From an uncultured bacterium (GTDB lineage: Bacteria; Patescibacteriota; Gracilibacteria; Absconditabacterales; Absconditicoccaceae), in the NCBI GenBank assembly GCA_947168815.1, contig CAMVNG010000001.1, positions 1 to 64,000 of the forward strand: DNA of 64,000 nucleotides. Direction: 5' to 3'. The stretch's first letter is position 1, and the number at the start of each line of letters is the position of its first letter. The notes below the pieces were generated by a model. It had not been told where the DNA came from and ran no database searches. It worked only from the letters and a program-made list of their open reading frames with translations. This document shows, piece by piece, positions 34,605-54,422 of the stretch. A program made the position numbers and the translations under genes.

Positions 34605-34997
34605 CTCTTATTATAAAACATCAATTCTAATCAAATAATTTCTTAATAGACATAAATACTGAATAAAGAGTTCCAAATTCCATATCACTTTCATCCCCTT
34701 CTAACTTACTTAGAACTTCCTTAATTTCTGTAAAATCTTTTTCTGTATATTGGTCTACGATTCTATTAACAATAGCTGCAAATTCATCATTATAGATATT
34801 TCTACTTACCATGAATTCTTCCAATGGAACATTATTTTCTTTATGGATACCCATAATTGATAATCTACAAAGCTTAGTAATAGCTCTCTTTTCATTATCA
34901 GTAAAATCCTTTTCATCTGTATAGCTATGACAAGCTGCACCAATTCAATTAACTTCTTCTCTACCTTCAATTAATTGTGGATACACTTCAAGCAAAA
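34577..34997. repeat. about 420-bp near-identical repeat, copy 1 (3' end of surface gene)
   Basis: It covers the terminator and the last ~120 codons of the surface protein gene at 34627 and is almost identical to 37836-38256. Divergence rises abruptly upstream in the genes, which suggests recent gene conversion or duplication limited by function to this anchor region. Confidence 0.85.
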
Positions 34998-37683
34998 TAT
35001 TTGTCATAACAGCAACTTCTCATCTAGTAAGATTTTGTTCTTCAACTCTTGTTGCTTTCTTTTTAGTTTCTTTAACAGCTTCAACCTTAGATTCCTCAGT
35101 CTTTTCGACAGCTGGAGCTTCATTTTTCTCCTCTACTACATCAGCAGAATTATGTTCTTCTTTTTCCACAGCTGGAGTTTTAACTACTCCGCTTCCACCT
35201 CATCAAATACCACTATTATTTGAAGGAACATAAGGATCACCTTCTGAATAAGCCACAAAAGTAGAAGCAGAACAAGTATAAATAACAACAAATCTTTCTC
35301 CATTTTTCTCCTCTACTAAAACATCTTCTCAATTATATTTATCAAGTTTAGGTTCACCATCCTCACACTCATTATGCTGATTTAATGTCAATCCTGTAAA
35401 TCAGAACTCTTCATCTCAAGCATGTTTTACTCTTACTTTAACATATTCAGTTGTTGTATTATTAACAGGAACTTTTACTGAAATAGGAGCAGAGAATTTA
35501 GCTGTTCATTCAATCTTATTATTATCAGTTTGATCATGGAAAGTAATTTCCAATCATCATTGATATTCAGCAACTTTACCAGAACTTACGACAATTTCTT
35601 TATCCTGAACAGTTGTAACGTTATCTGTCGTCTGAACAACACTATCATCCAATTCATCAGCAACAATTTGTACTCAATTATCTAAAGTTGCATTATTCAC
35701 AGTATCTCAAATTGAAACTGTTGTCTCAGCAGCAATAACTTTATTATTCTTAGAAATATATCATCATAAAACTCCTTGTCAGAAACTAGAATTTTCAGGT
35801 AATTTTAAATCTCACAACACATTCAAATAATTTAAAACAGAATACATTGCTTCAAGTAAACCAGCATCAATAGTAAAGTCTCAATCAATAGTAGTATTAT
35901 TAAATACATCTACATAAAAATCGATATCATCTCAAGTAATCAAAACATCACCACCAATCTTTAATCTATTCAATGAACCATACTTCGCAACGATATCTTT
36001 ACCATAAATTGTAAAATCTCAGTCAATCTTTGAATCATTAAAACCATACATCAAATCAATAGTATTTCAAGAAATATTAACATCTCATGAAATTTGAGAC
36101 CAAGTAAATCATGGTAATTTAATATTATCTCAAGTAATATTTAAACTTCATTTAATCTTTAAAGCAACAGGTATTCCTGACGATAATTTAATAGTATTTC
36201 AACTCACGTTAAAATCTCATAAAATATTTGTTGCTTGAAAGAAGTATCATCAATTGAGATTCAAATCTGTATTAATGAAATTAATACTTCATGAAACTAC
36301 CTCATTTCACAAAGTAAAAAGATTATAAAGATAAGTAAAGTTCGTATTAATAAATGATAAATCTCAAGATATTCAACGGGGACTTATATTATTCAAGTAA
36401 ATAGTTAATCATGAGAAAATTAAATCTCATCAAAGTGTTGAATATCAAAAAGAACTATCAAGATTAAAATTAGTTGGTTCACCTTCTGATTGAAAAACCA
36501 TATCAGAATTTACAACAGAATATCTAAATGAATTATACAATTTATTCAAAGAACTAGGAAATACTAAATTTCAATTAATTTCTGTCTCATTAAAAGAATA
36601 AGTAATTTGCTCCAAAGATTCTGGAAATACTATTGTTCAATTAGTAACAGAGCTTCCTCAATCGTAAAATTCTCATCAAAAAGAATATGAAGTAATATGA
36701 TTAATTCACTCTCAAATCACAACCTTTCCATTTTCTGTAATCTCTGAATCCATAAAAGAATAGGTCATTGTTCAACTAAATCATTTAACTTCAACTTCTC
36801 AATTAATTCTAGACTTATCTAATAAATAAGTAACTCCCATTGACGGAATATTATGTTCATTTCTATAATCCGTAATATCATAAACTATCTTTCAGTTTAC
36901 ATCAACATAATACATCTGAGAAATATAATTTTTGAATGTTAAGACTGAATTTTCAGCAACTGTAAATCCAAATGGATAATTCCAAGAAACATTAGGATCA
37001 ATTGTAATATTTCATACAAATGTTGCTCAAGAAAAAGCATAAGACCAAACATTTACTTTTTGAGGGAATACGACACTTTCAACTGTCTTTCACAAAAAAG
37101 TTCAATCCTTAACTGAAGTATACTTATCATCTCAGCTACCTGAAGTAGGGATTACTATATTAGTCTCATCACATAAATATTTACTCAAAATCAAAGTTCA
37201 AGCATCATTATATTCATATTCATAACATCTATTCAAATATTGCTCTGGAGTTTCTGAAGTACTATTTGAATCAGTTACAGATTGATTATTATCATTTTGC
37301 TCATTTCAATTATCCTGATTATCTGTATCAGGTGCTGAAGTATTCATTAATAATGGAGCAGGACTTGATAAAAGAGTATTTGAAATTTGAGGAGTATTAT
37401 CTCAATCATTTCCACTATCTCAAGAATTTGCATCATCTGTATCACCTGAAGTATCTCATGAATCAGTTCAATTGTCTCAATTATCAGTATCTCACGAATT
37501 ATCTCAGCTATCTCAACTGTCTCAATTACCCATATTATCCTGATTATCTCCTTGTCATTGTTGATCAGTTACTGCAGGTGTTTCCGATTCTTCAGGATCA
37601 TCACCATCTGCATACGTAAGCACTGGCATAAAATTACTCGATAGCAGCATAAGCATACTAAAAACTCATAACATTCTCTTCAT
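34627..37683 (-). CDS. giant surface protein with Gly-Asp-Ser linker, beta-solenoid repeats and a shared anchor
   Basis: A 1018-residue protein. A signal peptide (MKRMLGVFSMLMLLSSNFMPVLTYA) leads to a long linker of G-D-S/N/T repeats (residues ~45-95), in which the glycines are TGA. Next comes a region of ~25-residue repeats with an alternating pattern (INGNLVFPSSLNKLYNSF and similar) resembling BspA-type or beta-helix solenoids. A beta-sandwich-like segment (EYQGGLEITFHDQ...YVKVRVKHAGDEEFGF) follows, then a Lys/Glu-rich spacer. The 120-residue C-terminus contains RGEVAVMTNILLEVYP and SIMGIHKENNVPLEEFMVSR, S-layer-homology-like and probably the cell-surface anchor. It is probably an adhesin. 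Confidence 0.75.
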
Positions 37684-37835
37684 GTGTGTAGTAGTTATTT
37701 GATATAAAAAACCTTTTCAATAAATTATATACCAACATTAAATTTTTACAAATAATATTGACTTTTTTTATTTACATTATTTAATAATGAATATAGCCAT
37801 TGAAATCAGAATCATTTGGTAAAAAAATCCATTTT

Positions 37836-38256
37836 AAAAAAACTGACCATAAAAATGGCCAGTCTCTTATCATAAAATATCAATTCTAATCAAATAATTT
37901 CTTAATAGACATAAATACTGAATAAAGAGTTCCAAATTCCATATCACTTTCATCCCCTTCTAACTTACTTAGAACTTCCTTAATTTCTGTAAAATCTTTT
38001 TCTGTATATTGGTCTACGATTCTATTAACAATAGCTGCAAATTCATCATTATAGATATTTCTACTTACCATGAATTCTTCCAATGGAACATTATTTTCTT
38101 TATGGATACCCATAATTGATAATCTACAAAGCTTAGTAATAGCTCTCTTTTCATTATCAGTAAAATCCTTTTCATCTGTATAGCTATGACAAGCTGCACC
38201 AATTCAATTAACTTCTTCTCTACCTTCAATTAATTGTGGATACACTTCAAGCAAAA
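37836..38256. repeat. about 420-bp near-identical repeat, copy 2
   Basis: Counterpart of 34577-34997, at the 3' end of the second surface protein gene. The promoter regions of the two genes (37690-37820 and 40592-40720) are also alike, so the whole unit was duplicated in tandem. Confidence 0.85.
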
Positions 38257-40591
38257 TGTTTGTCATAATAGCAACTTCTCATCTTGTAAGAGTCTGTTCT
38301 TCAACTCTTGTAGCCTTCTTTTTAGTTTCTTTAGTTGTTTCAACCTTAGATTCTTCAGTCTTTTCAACAGCAGAAGTTTCATTTTTCTCTTTTACTAAAT
38401 CTGCTGAATTATGAACAGGTTCTTGTTTTACTGAGCTAGAACTACTAGGACCAGAAGATCCTCATGCTGGAGTACTACTACTTGGAGTATTAACAACAGG
38501 ATCACTTTCTAAATATGAAACAAATGTAGAAGCAGAACAAGTATAAATAGTAGCAAATCTGTCTCAATTATCATCGAATTCAACTTTTACATCCTCTCAA
38601 TTATATTGATCATTTTGAGCTACTCAATCAATACATTCGTTTTCAGGATTCAAGGTAAGACCTGTAAATCAGAAATCTTCTCATGCATGCTTAACTTTTA
38701 CTTTTACATATTCTTGATTTGGATTAGCAACTGGAATCTTAATAGCAATTGGAGCAGAGAACTTAGCTGTTCATTCTATTCTTTCTAATGTTCATCCATT
38801 ACCAATATTTTCAAAATAGACTTCAATTCATCATTGATATTCAATAACCTTACCTGATGTAGCTTGAATTTCAGCATTTTGAACTGTTGTCACACCAGAA
38901 GTTTCAACAACTTCAGAACTTTCAACTACATTTGCTACAATATTAATATCATCAATAATAGTTTTAGGTGTATTTTCACCAACAGAAACTGTAGTATTAT
39001 ATCCCATAGCAGTACTTCCTGCCGTAATTACTCATCACAATACTCAATCTCAGAATACTGAATTTTCAGGTAATTTTAATTTTCCTCAAAGTTTTAATGA
39101 GTTAAGAACTCAATTTTGAGCCCTTAATTCTGAAGCATCAATCTCCAAGTTTCATGCAATAGTCAAAGCATTAACAACATCAGTATCTAGATTTATAGTG
39201 TCTCATGACATATAGAAATCTCATGAAATATTAGCACCATTTAAAGCACCATACATCAATGAAATCTTATTACCTCTCATTACAAAATCACCTCAAACTC
39301 TTAGACCTTGTAACACACTTTTCAATGGAATTTCATTTCAAGACAATAGAAAATCACCTCAAACACTATAAATAGATAGACCTCATTGAGAAATATTAAT
39401 ATTTCAATTTGATGAGACACTAAAATCTCAATCTATTGCTGCAATATTTGAAGAATGAAATGAAAGATCTCAACAATTATCACAAATAAAACTTCAACTC
39501 AATGATGCACCATAAAAACTTTCAAAAGCAGCACTCGTTCAACTAAATATCATATCTCAACCCAATTTAGCCTGGTAGAATCATTTAATAGTAGTTGTCG
39601 AAGCTCAAAACATTAAATCTCAATTAATAGTTGATAATTGAAAAACTGAATTAGCAATATATTCTAAAGTATCAGGAAAAACTAAACCTGTATCAATAGT
39701 TGCATATGCAAAAGCATTATTTCACATTGTAACCAAACTATTAGGAAACACAATATTTCAACTAATATGTGATTGGTAGAATGAATTATCAGTAATTGTT
39801 GTTATTCCATCTCAAATAATAACATTTCAATTTTCTCATAATGTAAGATATTGTAATGCATTCCACAAAGTTCCTTCTCAATTTAATACTAATTTTCAAT
39901 CAACATTCATTCTTGAAGAATATCTAGTAATAGCTCATCAATTAATAGTTAATTCACCCCCTTCTCTAACCTCTACAGCAGTTAAATTATAATCATTTCA
40001 TAAAGATACTTTTCAATGTTCTCAAATTATAGCACCTTCGAATGAAGTTCTAGCAACATCTCAATTTTCAAATGTCATTTCTCAATCCAAAATTGCTCAC
40101 TCAAAAATTCAATAAGATGAATCAGTTATAGTACTTGCAGGTTTTTGAAAAGATTTAATAACATGTCCATTAAAAGCTCATCTTCCAATCCATGTAACTC
40201 ATTCAGGAATAACTACATTTCCTCAATCTTCACAAGTATATCCTAATAAATTAGTACTACTCAATTCAAGACAAGGATCATCAATTGTAATTTGATGAGA
40301 ACCTCAATTACTTCAAGAGTTATCTCAGTTACCTGAAGTATCTCAACTGTCTCAATTATCTGTATCTCAAGAATCGACATCATTAGTATCTCATGAATTA
40401 TCTCAGCTATCTCCACTGTCTCAGCTGTCTCAACTATCTGTATTATCTTGATTGTCTCCTTGTCATTGCTGATCATTTACAGCTGGTGTTTCTGGCTCTT
40501 CTGGATCATCACCATCTGCATACGTTAACACTGGCATAAAATTACTCGATAGCAGCATTAGCATACTAAAAACTCAAAACATTCTCTTCAT
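37886..40591 (-). CDS. giant surface protein, tandem paralogue with the same anchor
   Basis: A 901-residue paralogue of the 34627 product. It has the same signal peptide start (MKRMFGVFSMLMLLSSNF), the same G-D-S/N linker with TGA glycines, diverged solenoid repeats (about 115 residues fewer in total) and a C-terminal 75-residue block that is identical. Conserved ends around a variable middle are what an antigenic or receptor-switching pair would show. It has its own upstream region with the same TTGACTTTTTTxTTTACATT arrangement as its twin. Divergent from the GtrA gene. Confidence 0.75.
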
Positions 40592-40761
40592 TTGTGTAGT
40601 ATTAATTAGATATAAAAATCCTTTTCAAACAATTATATACCAAGAACAAAAATTTACAAATTATCTTGACTTTTTTTGTTTACATTATTTAATAATAAAT
40701 ATAACCATTGAAATCAGAATCATTTTTAATTAAATAACTCAATTCAAACTAAAAAAATAAG

Positions 40762-44635: not shown

Positions 44636-44720
44636 AAAAAAAGAGGAGTTCTAAACTGTAGAAATACATGGCCGTTAGAATACTCCTCCAAAATGTCCTC
44701 ACTTCACAATGAAGTTCATT
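44636..44720 (-). ncRNA. small RNA ending in a long terminator hairpin
   Basis: The hairpin GAACTTCA TTG TGAAGT is followed by a long stem (GAGGAGTATTCTAA with TTTAGAACTCCTC, 44643-44688) and seven Ts. A promoter-like TTGCAC (44746-44751) lies upstream with an AT-rich -10 region. No reading frame. Part of the UGA-free island 42.6-44.7 kb. Confidence 0.45.
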
Positions 44721-44879
44721 TTTATATTGAAAAAGTACACTTTAAGTGCAAGATTATATATAAAGAAAGAACTAATAACTTTCAAGGAAACATATAAAAA
44801 AACAAACCAATTAATATCTTGATATCAAATAAGTGAATGATTAAATATAAATATTCACTTTAAAGCTAGCTCCTCAATC

Positions 44880-46568
44880 ATGGAAAATTCAATAAACAAT
44901 AACGAACAATATAAAATAAGAAAAACTGCTGAAAATCTAGTCTCTCTAGAAGAAGATAAAGCCTGTACGGAGCTTATTAATATCCTAATGAAAACCTCTA
45001 CTAATTTTAAAAAAGGATATTATAACATAGCAAAACAACTTCAAGAAAGTCTAACCTTCTGAAAAGAATATGACTACAATCAAGATATATCAACTCTCAT
45101 AGAGCAAACACAAAAGGATGGAACACAAATTCAAAGAATAGGAAACCTCATGAAAGGATACAGATATCTTTGAGAAGGAGACAAACAAATGTCTAAATAT
45201 TTTTGTAGTGTCAAAGAAGAAGAAATCGCAACAGAAAAGCTCTGAAAACCATTTACGAAATATGCAGAAAGCTTCATAAGAACCTACTTTGCTTGTGCTT
45301 ATGACTTTATGAAAACAACATGAAAAATTCCTACCATTACTCCAGTACTAAAAAAAACTTTTCTAAAAATTTCAAGACGTTATATTACAGATCAAATAAA
45401 AAAACTAGAATTCAGTGAAGAAAATTACAAAGAATGTTTCAATGAAATCCAATGACTCTTAGAAGAGAATGGTGTAATTCTAGAACCATCAAATAATATC
45501 CAAGAAAGCTTTATAAAACTCTGTAGAGAAACCTATCCTCTTGCAAAACCATATTGTGATCAACTCTTTGAAAATAAGAGTTTCAGAAAAAAATTTCTAG
45601 AAAAAGAAGTAAATAGTTGAATTAATCAAACAACAGAAAAATTTTTTGATAGTATCGTAAAACTTGTTGATGACTATATAGCACAGCACCCTGAAGATGT
45701 TTGAGAACAATGAAGGAATGGAATAATCACAGATAATATCATCTTTAACTATAATAACCTTAGAGAAGAATCACTATGGGAAGATATGATTCTCGCAAAT
45801 TATTTCTTAGAAATAGTAAATACTTTTAAACAAGAACATAATAGGAAACTCGCTGCTCAAAAGAAAAAAGAAGAAACAAATGTAATTCAAGAAGAAATTC
45901 CAATTGTTAATCTTTGAGAAAATAGCCTACAATTCCTCAGCAAAGAAGATGAAGAAAATATAAACAAAGCTATCTCATACTTCAACTGTGATGATAAAAA
46001 GAAAAAAAGTATCAAAAAATTCTTCAGAAAACTACTAATAAAATGACTTCCACGAAAAATAAATGAATTTAAGAAAATCTTCGAAATTGAAAATATTCCG
46101 GCTTGAACAGAAAATATACTTATTGATATATTAGGGATTGAATACGTAAACGAAAAAGAAAATAAAGATAATAATGAAGAATCACCAATTAAAATCCAAG
46201 AAAATACTCAAGATGAACAAATCAATACTCAAGAAAATAAAGAAATAATAATCGAAGATCCTATTACCTCATTTCTAGAACGTATAGAAGGAAACTGATA
46301 TACCATACCAAACAAACCACTTCTTACAGAACAAATTGAAAATTTCTGTAAAAATTGAAACAATAAAACTGTACTAACAAATCTCTTAAAGAATCAATCT
46401 TTTTGAGGACTCCTCTTCCATAGAAACTGACATAAAAAAGCTCGTATTCTTCCAATTTGAAGAACAGGACGGAGACTCCTTTTAATAAAAGATTCTTGAG
46501 CAACAGAAGTTGATGGATTCTATAACCACAACGATTATGAATTTAATCTCGCTAAAATTAAAAATTAA
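44880..46568 (+). CDS. unknown 562-residue protein, tandem paralogue A
   Basis: A soluble helical protein (MENSINNNEQYKIRKTAENL...) in repeated modules. Its last ~60 residues (GHKKARILPIGRTG-CGG-RLLLIKDSG...EVDGFYNHNDY) are nearly identical to those of the next gene. That block has the strand-turn pattern of a RelE/ParE-like small domain (R.GRR.lli......i..fy.h.dY), but this is weak. A CGA at 46053 (LP-CGA-KINEF) matches Phe in the paralogue, which fits an aromatic (Trp). CGG here and CGA in the paralogue occupy the same site. Function unknown. Confidence 0.65.
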
Positions 46569-46588: not shown

Positions 46589-48301
46589 ATGGAATACTGA
46601 AACAAGCAAGATGCATTAAAATTCTATAATATCTCCATAGAAAGTAATAATGAAATGGATTCTCTTTTTCATGATGAATTTATAAAACTCCTCTGCTCAA
46701 GATCACGAGAATTCAGAAAATTTTATCAAGAAATAGCACATGAAGTCTTAACAAATCTACAAGGATATATGCAACATAAAGAACAAACAGAAAAGACTAT
46801 CCAACAATTAATGAATACAATAGACATAAAAGCGGATGAACTTCAAAGAACAATAAATCTCCTAAAAGGAACTTACTACGTCGCAGAAGGAAGATATGAT
46901 ATTGCAAACGAATATATGGATATTTTACCACAATGAGATAGTCTCCCTTTTATAGCTACACCATTTAAAAGCTATGCTAACCGTTTCATTAGAACAGTCC
47001 AGAAAGCTGCAATAGATCATATGAGACAAACAGAAAAATTTCCTAGTGCTGAAAATCTTGTAAAAGCTACTATGTGTAAATTTGCTAAAAATCAACTTGA
47101 ATGACAAATAAAAGGAATCGATTTTTCAGAAAATAATATAAAAGAAAATTTCTGAGAAATTTCAGCACTTCTAGAAGAAGAAGGAATACAAATCGAAGCA
47201 TCAGAGAATATCCAACAATCATTCATCAAATTATGTAGATCAAAATACCCTCAAGCAAAAAAATCATTAGATTATCTCTTCGAAAACAAAAAATTTAGAA
47301 ATGAATACATAAACCAAATATGTAATAATCTTACTCTATTTCTAAAGACATACTTCAATGCTGTTGTAGAAGATACAAAAAAAGCTATGGAAGAATGAAA
47401 AATTATATGAGAATATCACTCTAATATAACAAACAATATCCTTTTTAACTACCATGTATTTGTAAAAAATAACTACGTTTTCGAAGGACAAATCCTCTGA
47501 AAATATTTTCTAGAAGTTCTCAATGCCTTCAAAGAGGATCATAATAAAAAAATTAAAGCAAAAGAAAAACCTATGGAAAAAGAAAAAACGCCAATTCTTT
47601 CTAATGACGATATTCCAATACAAACACAAAATAAAAATGGACGAAAATTTCAAATCAATGAAGAAACCCACGCAACAATTGAAGAAGCTATTTCTCACAT
47701 AAAATCAAATGAACAAAAAAAATCAAGCATGATTAAATATATTGCAAAACTTCTTATAAAAGATCTCCCTTTCAAATTTAATGATTTCAAAAAAATCTTT
47801 AATCTCCAAGAAATTCCTGAAGAAACAATAACTATAATAACAGAAAAGCTCTGAATGGAATACGAAATTGGAAAAGAAGAAAAAGAAAGTACTCGGAATA
47901 AAAAAACCGAATCAAGAAAATGAGAAAATATTACTGGAAATACCAAAACAACAGAAGACACCACACCCACAAAAGAAATTCCTATTGAAGAAACAGAAAA
48001 GTATTTCCTTGAACATATAAAAACACTTTGTTTCTCCATTAAAAATGAAAATCTTCTAAAAAAACAAATTGAAGAATTTTGTAAAAATAATAGACATAGA
48101 ACAACACTAAATAATCTTCTTAAGAATCCAGAAGTAGGAAAAGTATTAGCTCATAAATGAGGACACAAAAAAGCACGTATTCTAGCTATATGAAGAACAG
48201 GACGAAGACTACTTCTAATCAAAGATTGAGAAAAAATTGAAGTAGATGGATTCTACAATCACAACGACTATCTAAATAATTTGGCAAAAATCAAAAACTA
48301 A
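46589..48301 (+). CDS. unknown 570-residue protein, tandem paralogue B
   Basis: It follows the 44880 gene by 20 bases and has the same domain plan: an N-terminal helical part, two modules with NIQQSFIKLCRSKYPQAK / LIKDLPFKFNDFKKIFNL, and the conserved C-terminal block (GHKKARILAIGRTG-CGA-RLLLIKDGE...VDGFYNHNDY). Overall identity to its neighbour is moderate, but the C-terminal 60 residues are strongly conserved, so that block is probably the functional core. Its stop overlaps the stop of the convergent phosphodiesterase-like gene by four bases. Confidence 0.65.
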
Positions 48302-49452
48302 ATTACTTTCCACAATAGTGGAATATCTATCTCCTCCCTACTAATTCATCAATGATTTCAAAGAATAGGTTTCCTCTCCTGTCCTAAAACACTATCAACT
48401 AAAATATAATTTTCTTTCATAACAAGAATATAATCTCAAATCCTATCTAAGAATCCTTTATGAATTTCTCAAGTTCAAAACCATCAATTATCTAATAAAT
48501 CTTTACTCTTATAACAATCACAATATTCAGAGAAATGTTCTCATACCCATTTCTCAAACTCTTCTCCTCTACCTACCTTAACATGACAAAAAGCAGCTCT
48601 AGTTTCTCAAGCCAAAGGCATAGAAAGCATATCAACAAATTCTGGATAATCCTCTGCCTTTATATTTCTCTCTGGTATTGAGTCAATCATTCAATGATCT
48701 GCTGTTAATAATAACAAAGTATTTGTTCCCTCAATTTCTTTTACCAATTCATCTAAACACTTAAATAAATGCCTTGCATATTCCTTAGTTTGATTACTAT
48801 TAATTCAATTTGCATGACACAATGAATCAAAATCTGGATCATAACAATAACAATATTTTTTATTCTTAGAACCCTTAATAACCTCTTTTAATTTTTTACA
48901 TAAATCAGAAAAATCACTACATCATATTCTAGTAGCATGCTTACTAAAAGATCTAGAATATTCAGAAGTTACTAAATTAAATCTATTAAAATAACAATTC
49001 TCCCTCTCAGAAGACTCATATATTGAAGGCGTATCATAATAATAGCTACAATCAGTTTTAATACTTAATTCAACTCATGTTCTTGTAGCAAAAGGTAAAA
49101 GTGCTGTTACGACACCAATCTCTTTTAAATAAGCATACCATCAAGGTAATCAATGCTCTTGAGGTGTCTTTCAAGTAGCTAAACTCGTTAATGCAGGAGC
49201 TGTAGCTGAAGGAAAAATTGGATGAATAACCTGATGATTATAAACCCCTAATTCATTAGAAAAATATTTTTCAAGAAAATGATAAGCAAATCAATCAATA
49301 ACAAACAAAATAACTGAATCAAAATTCTTAATATAAGATGAAGGCAAACTTCATAATTCAGGATGATTACTTTTTAAAGAAGAAAATGCATTAATTAAAG
49401 AAGCAAGTAAATTCACTGTATTATCTTTATCATAATTAATTGGAGAATGCAT
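48298..49452 (-). CDS. alkaline phosphatase-superfamily phosphodiesterase/pyrophosphatase
   Basis: A 384-residue protein. Motifs: ILFVIDGFAYHFLEKY (metal Asp, D-G-), HPIFPSATAPALTSLATGKTPQEHGLPG (nucleophile Thr/Ser), and LLLLTADHGMIDS (D-H-G) near residue 255, with a late GNHGG. This is the type I phosphodiesterase / nucleotide pyrophosphatase layout (PF01663). No signal peptide, so it acts in the cytoplasm. It is the last gene of a minus-strand operon that starts with a radical SAM-PHP fusion. Confidence 0.85.
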
Positions 49453-49479
49453 TGATTCGATAATATAGAAAATAAAAGA

Positions 49480-50070
49480 CTAATTAACTATTTTTCATCT
49501 CATTTTCTCATAAACTATTCTCGCCAATCACATTGAAAAACTATACATTTGAGAATTAGAAATATAAGGAATTTTTTCAATACTTTTTCATTCCTCTCAA
49601 AACTTAGAAAAAAATCTTTGATAAGATAGCTCAAGTGGAAATACTAATCCACTCTCAGCCTTCAACACATCATCTAAACAAAACTCATACAAAAAACTTA
49701 TTTTATTTAAACCTCAAATCTCTTTAATTTTATAATAGTTATAAGTAGACATCTTACTATCACCAGACACATAATAATCTCACTTCTTTCACTCTAAATT
49801 AACCTCATCACTAAACAAAACAATAGCAGGCAACCATCATAAATTTTCTCCATAAAAATCAGAAAAACAATGGACTGAATTTTCAAGCATAACCTTCTGA
49901 GCTTCCAAAGAAATCCCATGACATATACTAACTCCTAAAGTAAACAAAAATTGATCCCATTGAAAATCATCAAAAGGAATTTCAAAAACAGCAGAAGTTA
50001 ATCTTTTCAATCAATAATTACTCACCTCCTCTACATATCTTTTTTGTGTTGAGTATAAGAATTGCTTCAT
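49480..50070 (-). CDS. unknown 196-residue protein in the radical SAM operon
   Basis: MKQFLYSTQKRYVEEVSNYGLKRL... is a soluble protein with several aromatic residues (DFQWDQFLFTLG, CFSDFYGENLGWLPAIVLFSDE). It overlaps the upstream kinase-like gene by 40 bases in another frame, a sign of translational coupling. No recognised family; possibly an enzyme specific to this pathway. Confidence 0.65.
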
Positions 50071-50957
50071 TGATAAAGCCTTTGCATACGATTATAAAAA
50101 TCATGCATCATCGCAACCTCCTTAGAATTCTTAGGATAATGCAAGCTCACTAAAAACTTATAAATATCATATCATGAACGCCTATATTCCTTTAATTTTT
50201 CTTTTGAATATCATAATGTTTCAAGAAAAAACTTTCTAAATTCATCATACCAATAAATATCTCAAATATGATGACACAATAAAAGAATACTGAATATAAG
50301 TTTTCAAATATCTTCATCTTCATTTCCCTCCTTAATCTGTGGATCAAGAAGCATAACTTCACCTCAAGAAATAAAAAGATTATCCATCTTTAAATCTCAA
50401 TAAACGAGTCCATTCTTATAGAGTTCATCCAAAGAATCGATAAGTTTTTTTAATGAAACAAATAATTCTGATGAATCAACATCTTGATGTCACTCAGAAA
50501 TAAAAGTTCATAAATCCTTTCATTCTATATAAGGTGTAATCAAAAGATTATCAATTAATTGTACTTGAGTATCATCAATAGTTGAGATTCATAATGCATT
50601 TAATTTCTTATAATCCTCATATTGTTTACTAATAATATCTGTACATTTATTCTCTTTTAAAAGAGTATTAAATTTTTCTTTATCCTCTAAATAGACTCTA
50701 AAATTAGACCAAATACTTCTATCTCAAAGATTAGTCTTCACCACATATTTTTTTCATCAAGAACGATATCTAAAAACCCGATTTGTGAAATTATAATCGT
50801 TATTAATTAACTGCAAGTCAGTAACCTCTCAAAAATTCTCCACTAACAAGTCATTTATATGTTTTTTTACCAAAGAAACAAACTCTTGAAAACGTCAATC
50901 CATTTTCTCTTGCTCATGAATATTCATCTCTTCAGCAATTACTGTTGTTTCTTTCAT
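50031..50957 (-). CDS. kinase-like phosphotransferase (APH/choline kinase fold)
   Basis: A 308-residue protein. N-lobe: NDYNFTNRVFRYRSGGKKYVVKTN (nucleotide loop and Lys). C-lobe: a linker LLITPYIEGKDL, the catalytic loop LVYGDLKMDNLFI (G/H-D-L-K-x-D-N) and the metal motif VMLLDPQI. This is the eukaryotic-like/aminoglycoside phosphotransferase fold, in which small hydroxyl metabolites such as choline, sugars or nucleosides are phosphorylated. The usual His of HGD is Tyr here (VYGDLK). It sits between HAD phosphatases and the phosphodiesterase-like enzyme. Confidence 0.75.
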
Positions 50958-51592
50958 CAGAGTAAAAACAATAATAAAGAATTAATATCTTCATAGATAA
51001 ATTCTTCAGTTAATCATTCTTTTATAAAATCTTCTGCACTTGTATATCATGTTAATACAGCATAAAAAGCTACTCAAGCATCTCTAGCTGCATAATAATC
51101 AACTAGGGCATCTCATATATAAATTATTTCAGATACATCAACTCCTAACATTTCTAATACTTGTGTAAACACAAGTGGATTAGGTTTTTTATACTGCATA
51201 TTTCATGAATGGAAGATAACAGAACACTGATCTTTTATTCAAAGATAGTCTAATTTTTCAATAGTCTTAACCTCAGGTCCATTCGTTAAAACTCAATATT
51301 TATATCATAGTCCAGCTAATTCCTCAAGATATGTAACATCAATAAATTTCTTTTTAAGCATTGTCTTTTTTAATTCATTATAATGCTGTTTTGCATTTTC
51401 AACACTATCATATTCACCAAAAAAATGTTCAATATTCTTATCAAAATCTCATCACATATACTGCTCTAAAAATTCATTTTGATCTATATTTTCAATTCAA
51501 TACTGTTTACCTAATGCTAAAAAGATAGAATATGAATTCATAAAGGTTTCTAATAAAGTATCATCAATATCAAATATCAAATATTTTCACAT
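50939..51592 (-). CDS. HAD-superfamily hydrolase A
   Basis: A 217-residue protein. Motif I LIFDIDDTLLETF, motif II VLTNGP, motif III with KKPNPLVF, and motif IV IIYIGDALVDYYAARDAG: the phosphoglycolate phosphatase/beta-phosphoglucomutase-like class with a helical cap. It overlaps the kinase-like gene by 19 bases. The paralogue lies next door (51596). Confidence 0.88.
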
Positions 51593-51595
51593 AGT

Positions 51596-52222
51596 TTAAA
51601 GATTATCAAGTAAACTTATAACATCCTTATATATAAATTTGCTATTGAGTCAAGCATTAATAAAATCATCAAATTTCGTAAATCACGTAAGCATAGCATA
51701 AAAACAAATCCCCGCATCTCTAGCTGAATAATAATCCTCCAATGAATCTCCAATAAAAATAATTTCATTAAATTTCCCTTTAACTCCTTCAAAAACCTTA
51801 GGAGAAGGTTTCTTATACTGCATATTATCTCAATGAAAAATCAAAGAACAATCATCTTTAATTCATAAAAAATCTAACTTTTTCGTCGTTTTTTCTTCAT
51901 TTCAATTAGTAAGAATACCTATTAAATATCACTTATCATTCAAGGAATTAAAAATAGTTTTTATATTATCATATATTGCATCATAAGGAACAACCTCTCA
52001 AGCTTCTTTATAATATTTCATATATAAATCAGAAGAAATTTCTGGAATCAATATGCTCGCCATCTCAGTAATTGATTTTTTTCAATAATAAGAAAAATAT
52101 AAATCATAATCAGTTAACGGAACTCAACATTTCTCACATATTAAACAATGTTTTTTATACGCATTTTTAGAGGTATAAAGCAAAGTATCATCAATATCAA
52201 AAAGGATTAATTTAGCATTCAT
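51596..52222 (-). CDS. HAD-superfamily hydrolase B
   Basis: A 208-residue protein and paralogue of the 50939 product. Motif I LILFDIDDTLLYTS, motif II ILTNGN, KKPSPKVF and IIFIGDSLEDYYSARDAG. The two share the unusual segment G(N/D)NMQYKKP. Keeping two related phosphatases side by side suggests that two different phosphorylated intermediates are handled. It overlaps the radical SAM gene by 11 bases. Confidence 0.88.
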
Positions 52223-54278
52223 TTTCTTGGAATACATTATAAATTCTCTCATATTCATATTCCGTTAATCAAAAAGTTCATGGATAAATATCATAGAATT
52301 CTGGTCTACTTTTAGGTTTTCAATGATAATCACTTCATCATACAACTAATAACATCCATTCATTAACTGCTTTTTCTAAAATTCTTTTTGTTTCTGGAAT
52401 ATGTGTTTTATGATACACTTCAATTCAATCTAAACCTAATTCTTTTAACCTCCAAATTTCTCTTAACAAATGCTTATAATCAATTCATACATTAGTACTT
52501 TTTCATCAAAAAGGTCTATCCCATCAAGGATGAGCCAATCAACAAATTCATCAAAGTTCTTTAACAAGAGGAATAATCTCCTCTGCTCTCAAATATTCAC
52601 TATACGTTTCCTCCTCTGAAATCTGAGAAAGATATTTTTCTTTAACAAGATCAATTTCTTCTCAAGTAATCTGTGAAATATATTTAGCAAGACAAGACCT
52701 TGTCATCAATTGCTTATATGGAGTTTCATACGTTCAATCAGGAGTAATTCCTTTTAACATTTCATCAAAATCAGGTAATTCAAATCACTGTGATTGTAAC
52801 TTTTTTACTTGATCATAGAAAAAAGAATTTTTAATCTCTAATGGTTTTCTAATCTTCTCTAAAAAGTTTTTATCTAATAATCATTTTCAATAACAAAGAA
52901 GATGATGCTTTCTATCAGGAGTATTTCAATCAGGATGAGTCACCACATTAACTTCTATTCAAGGGAAAGGAATCTCAATTCAAAAAGATTCTGCCTGCGA
53001 AACCATCTCATCATAATTCTCAGCAACAAAATTATGTTCAGTAATACACATAGTAGAAACTTTATACTTTTTTGCCTCCTCTAAAACTTCTAAGAAAGTT
53101 TTTTTTCAATCAGAATTGATAGTATGAACATGTAAATCAACAGGAAATTGAAAATCATTCTCTTCCAACTTTTTCTCTCTTAATTTTCTATTTTTCATCA
53201 TAAATACATCATAAGAAGGAGAATAATTTCATTCTTGATGTATTTCACCTGATTCAATAATTCAATCTATTAGCTTTTCTTTATCCTCTTCAAACAAAAC
53301 ATCCATTGGATCTATCCAACTTTTATAAGCAATATCATTAGGGAAATAGATTACTCTTCTTATTTTACCATCAGGATCTAACTCCTCTGAAACCTGTTCA
53401 AAATCAACACATACGTTATCTTTTACAAAAGAATGAACATGAATATCACTCTTATGTAATGAGAACTTTTCTACAAATCATTCATTTAGAAAATAAGGAG
53501 TATATTCATCAATATCTTTAACATTCTCTATTCAAAAAATAAAGAACTCAGAATTTTTAATATATTTTAATGGAGTTTTTGAATTAGAAGCAGCTCTAAA
53601 AATAAACTTATTAACTCAGTTTTCTCTTCAAAACTGAATATAATTAAAGATGTCTACTTCTGTCCATATTCAAACTTTATTTAAGAAACAACTAAACCTA
53701 ATACTACACTTATCGCTGCATCATCAAAGATACTTTATCTGTTCATGAGTTAATCAATGAAAATCTCACCAAAAATTCATAATTTTCTTATTATTTTCAT
53801 AACGATAATCAGCTAAACTTAAAGTTAATTTATTAACTCAATAAGAAATTAAAACATCAAGTAAATACTGTCCATGATAATCCATGAACAAATTAGTTCA
53901 ATTGGTATGCAATATAATATCTTTAAATTTTCACTGTAAATATTGGACCAAAGAAACAAGATAATGAGCATTAATTGTAGGTTCTCATCAAGAAATTCAA
54001 ACAGCAGATATTTCAGCAACTTGAGCAAAATCAATCACCTTTTTTAAATAATCAGTTACAGAATGTTGCTGTGATTTAGGATAAAAAGTTATTCAATTAA
54101 AACAGAACTTACATCTAGCGTTACAATATCAAGTTGTTTGAATAGTTAAAATAGCATTATTGCTGACGATAAAACGTCAACCATTATAATTAACAATCTT
54201 ACATTTTTTATACAGGACTCAATCAATTAACTTACCGTCTTCTCAAATATATTCAACAATTCCATTATTTAATGACAT
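52212..54278 (-). CDS. radical SAM - PHP phosphoesterase fusion
   Basis: A 688-residue protein. Residues ~45-290 form a radical SAM domain with QTTGYCNARCKFCFNG (CxxxCxxC iron-sulfur motif) and VGISGGEPTINAHYL (SAM-binding GGEP). Later cysteines (GGCSDKCSIRFSC) could hold an auxiliary cluster. Residues ~390-680 form a PHP domain: VDLHVHTINSDGKKTFLEVLE (HxH and D), TEHN, GIEVNVVTHPDGN, GLAHPGWD and GSDYHGKP, which together carry the metal ligands of PolIIIA-type/histidinol-phosphatase-like phosphoesterases. First gene of the operon. The substrate is unknown; one chain may build and then dephosphorylate a product. Confidence 0.88.
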
Positions 54279-54422
54279 AGAGCCATATTTAAATAATATA
54301 AATAGCTGCACTAATATATTATCAAAAGTCATATCACTAATCAAGAAGAATTACATTATTTATTGACTTTTTATAGAAAGAAAACTATACCTTAGTTGTT
54401 TTATTATTTATTCATAACAAGC

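Follow-up and report, generated by a model that had tools for sequence, protein, structure and literature searches.

The DNA stretch analysed here (the window, 64,000 nucleotides: positions 1 to 64,000 of contig CAMVNG010000001.1, assembly GCA_947168815.1) comes from the 1.29 Mb genome of an uncultured bacterium of the Absconditicoccaceae (Patescibacteriota), and its minus strand carries, at 48298-54278, six genes headed by a fusion of a radical S-adenosylmethionine (SAM) domain to a PHP phosphoesterase domain. This six-gene cassette is real and unusual, and its mechanism is weakly constrained. It is a discrete accessory element, present or absent as one block. Tentatively, we read it as a metabolic cassette that may tailor a phosphorylated small molecule, by radical chemistry and then by phosphate removal.

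When 48298-54278 was read with translation table 11, no long open reading frames (ORFs) were found. With table 25, in which TGA encodes glycine, six minus-strand ORFs appeared at the positions given by an earlier, sequence-only reading of the window, which had described them as six overlapping or close-set genes. This description is borne out under table 25: the junctions measure, from 5' to 3' along the operon, -47, +3, -19, -40 and +27 bp, that is, none exceeds 27 bp and three of the five are overlaps, all in one orientation. The TGA=Gly code is supported because TGA encodes each of the two glycines in GGEP and is the sole stop codon found inside the Radical_SAM (10 matches) and ribosomal L6 matches across the genome. 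Regarding codon usage, 110 of the 146 glycine codons of the operon (75%) are TGA, against 54% in the remaining ORFs of the window; this share equals or exceeds that of most neighbouring genes, and therefore the cassette has long been resident in code-25 genomes. TGA use is similarly high in all six genes. With three quarters of the glycine codons being TGA, the idea that the cassette came in recently from a code-11 organism was considered and found no support.

The fusion gene (52212-54278, 688 aa) was started at its first ATG, with an in-frame TTG lying at 54344. Its product consists of a radical SAM domain (residues 40-345 approximately), a linker and a PHP domain (378-688). Both domains belong clearly to their superfamilies: Radical_SAM (PF04055) scored 54.2 bits against a cut-off of 29.5 (2.6e-14), with C52xxxC56xxC59 and GGEP at residues 97-100, and PHP (PF02811) scored 40.5 bits against 26.4 (4.6e-10), with the metal ligands H383/H385/D390, E414-H415, E442, H583 and D650/H652 kept. 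Thus the motifs and ligands that the sequence-only reading had named were all located by inspection. The next gene, overlapping the fusion gene by 47 bp, encodes HAD-superfamily phosphatase A (51596-52258, 220 aa, HAD_2 7.6e-22), and it is followed by HAD phosphatase B (50939-51592, 217 aa, HAD_2 1e-28). Both have the DxDxT, KKP and GD motifs, they are 44% identical, and they are tandem copies (DNA repeat D1). The best fit of both is to small-molecule enzymes of the phosphoglycolate-phosphatase type; HAD A also matches a polynucleotide 3'-phosphatase model weakly (0.0048). The last gene of the operon (48298-49452, 384 aa) encodes a phosphodiesterase/nucleotide pyrophosphatase of the alkaline phosphatase superfamily; its NPP-like Phosphodiest domain (PF01663) scored 83.1 bits against a cut-off of 23 (3.7e-23), and the ligands D53, D209/H213, D252/H253 and H367 are kept. 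The fusion, the two HADs and the phosphodiesterase of the sequence-only reading are therefore all confirmed by Pfam above cut-off.

The other two genes are less easily placed. The protein-kinase-like phosphotransferase (50031-50957, 308 aa) has the GDLKxxN and LLDP motifs and the catalytic residues K74, D188/N193 and D205, as expected from its earlier description as kinase-like, but its scores stay under the Pfam cut-offs, both for Pkinase (25.5 against 31.7 bits, 1e-5) and for RIO1 (21.3 against 22 bits, 2e-4), and no relatives were found among 192 genomes of the class. The 196-aa orphan protein (49480-50070) had been described as without family, and this stands: it has no Pfam match and no credible relatives in the Pfam, NCBIfam-type and genome searches, including the same 192 genomes. 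Its AlphaFold2 model, built without relatives, has a predicted local distance difference test (pLDDT) score of 34. One match to the orphan in another genome (G186, E 0.006) was rejected because its frame opposes a longer GTPase-like reading frame. The orphan is the sole exception, since by sequence every enzyme of the cassette falls into a known superfamily, and inspection found the catalytic motifs kept in all of them. In total, the cassette encodes four hydrolases of phosphate esters beside a single radical enzyme and a single phosphotransferase, and two of these six activities are joined in one chain.

The block-wise presence of the cassette was observed at its site. In the two congeners examined the operon is absent and the flanking genes are collinear. 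In one of them (G229), only AAGAGC separates the stop codon of the 46574-48301 gene's ortholog from the TTGACA of the promoter of the 54423-gene ortholog. In the other (G221), the gene upstream is degraded and those downstream are retained. Relative to G229, the source genome thus has around 6 kb more (~48302-54362), extending from the stop region that both share (48298-48301) up to just short of the TTGACT at 54363. This hexamer belongs to TTGACT-N17-TATACC, which, by consensus match only, is the putative promoter of the plus-strand 54423 gene; the same divergent intergenic region (54279-54422) probably holds the minus-strand promoter of the operon as well. We saw no direct repeats longer than 8 bp at the insertion flanks and recognised no mobile or defence genes beside the cassette. 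The rarity of the cassette in the order favours a gain here over a loss in the congeners. On the flank, the genes 44709-46568 and 46589-48301 encode adjacent paralogous large proteins without a Pfam match, each sharing around 41-44% identity with the one gene that a congener has at this site, which is a local duplication.

Regarding the radical SAM half, the profile of its family (12 members) found MoaA as the top match in PDB (4.5e-20), followed by tetraether synthase and viperins; the alignment pairs residues 42-300 with residues 16-260 of MoaA, that is, with most of that enzyme. The AlphaFold2 model has a good barrel and a mean pLDDT of 62, and Foldseek returned viperin, MoaA and BlsE with it, the viperins on top. 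Nevertheless, the scores for the named families were far too low: 44.5 bits against a cut-off of 284 for the MoaA equivalog, with the C-terminal cysteines of the second cluster not conserved in the family, and 36 against 180 for the prokaryotic viperin equivalog. Nor is it of the SPASM/twitch type, as cysteines 187, 191, 197 and 290 are not conserved among its relatives. What the family does have is a C-terminal N...SW motif (N314, S320 and W321), invariant or nearly so. Because both cut-offs were missed, no C-terminal cysteine is conserved and N...SW is near-invariant, by sequence the radical SAM half is best placed in a separate, uncharacterised family related to MoaA and viperin, with members also in phages and Bacteroidota. 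In the tree, the radical SAM half and its counterpart from a Peregrinibacterium pair up with weak support (81/45) at the family's base; the other members are from phages and Bacteroidota, plus one Lachnospiraceae protein. The radical SAM half and the phage and Bacteroidota proteins fall into one 14-member group (87/88).

The PHP half is nearest, at the superfamily level and judging from profile matches, to cyclic-phosphate, nucleoside-bisphosphate and RNA-end enzymes. Its best NCBIfam match is the PHP-type phosphoribosyl 1,2-cyclic phosphate diphosphodiesterase (2.5e-15), to which it cannot be assigned with 56.5 bits against a cut-off of 500; 3',5'-nucleoside bisphosphatase (8.5e-14) and RNase RNM (5.9e-13) are likewise far under their curated cut-offs. 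The PDB neighbours are 3e0f and 2yb1, and also 7ug9, a 5'-3' exoribonuclease.

Among 288 genomes of the class, just one besides the source clearly matched both halves of the fusion. This is a Candidatus Peregrinibacteria metagenome-assembled genome (G183, locus JABILX010000004.1), whose PHP and radical SAM proteins are 39% and ~26-28% identical to the respective halves. As in the cassette, the two genes adjoin; there, however, they are unfused and convergent, on opposite strands, with a 20-bp overlap, next to a HAD gene and without kinase, orphan or phosphodiesterase. A tree of 39 PHP proteins unites the two PHPs with full support (100/100) on a long stem. No comparable locus was found in the other 48 genomes of the order examined (one, G058, gave a weak PHP match only), in 89 genomes of the order of the Peregrinibacterium apart from its own, or in a phylum sample of 380 genomes; pattern scans with the fusion protein retrieved no relatives from genome and viral collections, and no PHP match in other Patescibacteria adjoins a related radical SAM gene. 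Since the Peregrinibacterium has both halves as adjacent unfused genes, radical SAM plus PHP is the conserved core, while the other four partners are suggested by operon structure. The six-gene pathway of the sequence-only reading is thus backed by comparison for this pair and drawn from operon structure for the remainder, and neighbourhood searches recovered the pair unfused in this one genome and the full operon nowhere else. Neighbouring PHP and radical SAM genes of Bacilli (L084 5217-11744, L087 8977-15438; also L086, L088, L089, L091 and L093) were rejected as a different system. This apparently unrelated cluster, with a LysR-like regulator gene ahead, has PHP, deoxyribosyltransferase-like, glycosyltransferase-like and acyltransferase-like genes, a DegT-type aminotransferase and a SPASM-type radical SAM protein with C-terminal cysteines.

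Comparison with known systems gives partial likenesses. The radical SAM half shares with MoaA, the GTP 3',8-cyclase of the molybdenum cofactor, the barrel, CxxxCxxC and GGEP, but the fusion adds N...SW and PHP, and no MoaC gene stands beside it. With viperin and prokaryotic viperins, which synthesise 3'-deoxy-3',4'-didehydronucleoside triphosphates (ddhNTPs), the Foldseek likeness is 3.2e-10, with a TM-score of 0.67-0.68 by target length, and the single conserved cluster in the core is shared as well; the identity is around 14%, and in place of a lone nucleotide kinase the cassette has a PHP fusion with HAD and phosphodiesterase partners. In C-P lyase the step of the radical SAM enzyme PhnJ is followed by a PHP-family cyclic phosphodiesterase, so that the formal logic is alike; nevertheless, the radical SAM half here is MoaA-like, not PhnJ, and the operon has no other phn genes. 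A further likeness is the two-radical-SAM family of phages and Bacteroidota (Dulem virus 40 XCD03711.1 and relatives), the same radical SAM family with a common core and N...SW, which lacks PHP, has in most loci a second, small radical SAM protein (P0011 type) and lies sometimes within gene clusters of nicotinamide adenine dinucleotide (NAD) salvage. There the pair (~230 and ~345 aa) adjoins NAMPT/NAPRTase (L080 7055-13599, L053 6067-12062, L052 1565-9035), with NAD synthase nearby in two loci. This neighbourhood suggests a possible role of the pair in viral NAD or nucleotide chemistry; our literature search found no paper on such a pair beside NAMPT/NAPRTase.

With its mix of radical, phosphotransfer and phosphate-ester-hydrolysing activities, the cassette is most simply read as serving the stepwise tailoring of a phosphorylated small molecule. 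The kinase-like protein, or the metabolism of the cell, would supply the phosphorylated substrate, most likely nucleotide- or sugar-phosphate-like, on which the radical SAM domain would act by SAM cleavage and a radical reaction. The fused PHP domain would then hydrolyse a phosphate ester, or a cyclic phosphate, of the radical product, the two HADs would take off leftover phosphomonoesters, the phosphodiesterase may open a phosphodiester or pyrophosphate, and the orphan could serve in binding, in transfer or as a partner subunit. Substrate, step order and product are inferred here, as is the membership of kinase, phosphodiesterase and orphan in the same pathway. The relatedness to MoaA, viperin and BlsE and the NAD-salvage neighbourhood of some relatives tilt us to a nucleotide- or ribose-phosphate-type substrate; MoaA and viperin act on nucleotides, and viperin makes ddhNTPs. 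For a lipid-linked substrate, what speaks is the radical core shared with the glycerol dialkyl glycerol tetraether (GDGT)/tetraether synthase, and nothing further. The nucleotide- or lipid-linked headgroup proposed in the sequence-only reading is not readable from the sequence, with the MoaA and viperin cut-offs both failed.

Several points weigh against this reading. The full six-gene set is known from one genome, and for this reason kinase, phosphodiesterase, orphan and the two HADs have no comparative support as partners of the fusion. The HAD of the Peregrinibacterium is not an ortholog of A or B (27% over 85 residues), and HADs are widespread. Elsewhere, phosphodiesterases related to that of the operon stand alone, without cassette partners in the neighbourhoods examined (G182, G091, G023 and G151); the gene of a further relative (L114 7088-9236) overlaps one similar to spore photoproduct lyase, which is also a radical SAM enzyme. 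Furthermore, the radical SAM model is only moderate and the superfamily is catalytically diverse, which makes the inference of a nucleotide weak.

A loose cluster of phosphohydrolases, in which the fusion acts by itself with the other genes as passengers, would agree with these points, since outside the source genome only radical SAM and PHP co-occur, the phosphodiesterase relatives stand alone, and the class samples yielded no relatives of kinase or orphan. It is nonetheless somewhat unlikely, given five successive junctions of at most 27 bp in one orientation, three of them overlapping, the gain or loss of the set as one block, and the comparably high TGA use in all six genes. The empty sites in the congeners, the viperins as best structural matches (with weak pVip matches, 2.8e-10) and the related radical SAM proteins of phages could also point to a cassette for anti-phage defence or competition, whose radical SAM enzyme would produce a modified nucleotide or nucleoside toxic to phage or neighbours, kinase and hydrolases adjusting its phosphorylation. 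We consider this improbable: PADLOC gave no system-level match, the pVip and kinase matches are superfamily-level and of single genes, the score for the viperin equivalog is 36 bits where 180 are required, no defence or mobile genes were recognised alongside, and the high TGA use speaks for a long history in code-25 genomes. Very improbable, in our view, is RNA end-processing or modification, with the radical SAM enzyme modifying RNA and PHP, HADs, kinase-like protein and phosphodiesterase trimming or repairing ends. The PHP is related to RNase AM/RNM and to nucleoside bisphosphate phosphatases, as its RNM, bisphosphatase and 7ug9 matches indicate, and HAD A has its weak 3'-phosphatase match; but all NCBIfam matches lie far under curated cut-offs, the cassette has no RNA ligase or RNA-binding domain, and the HADs fit small-molecule enzymes best.

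We therefore keep, tentatively, the tailoring of a phosphorylated small molecule. A bolder version, which we regard as unlikely, is a new bifunctional enzyme that rearranges a phosphorylated nucleotide or sugar by radical SAM chemistry and hydrolyses the phosphate of the product in one polypeptide, heading a new pathway by which this genome-reduced bacterium would make a modified nucleoside-type molecule for use on its host or phages. Elsewhere in the window, the large adjacent minus-strand ORFs 34630-37737 and 37889-40660 have similar starts (MKRMLGVFSML.. and MKRMFGV..) and probably encode duplicated surface or secreted proteins.

The sequence-only reading knew of no named pathway with this gene order. 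We know of no described pathway with such a fusion and gene set either, and our literature search found none, nor any paper on a radical SAM-PHP fusion. Few biosynthetic pathways are known from this group of ultra-small bacteria; in a cell of this kind, a self-contained cassette built round such a fusion would indicate a new product. The unfused version in a distant lineage means that the pairing of both activities is not a one-off, and the cassette offers a starting point for an uncharacterised radical SAM family common to phages and Bacteroidota.

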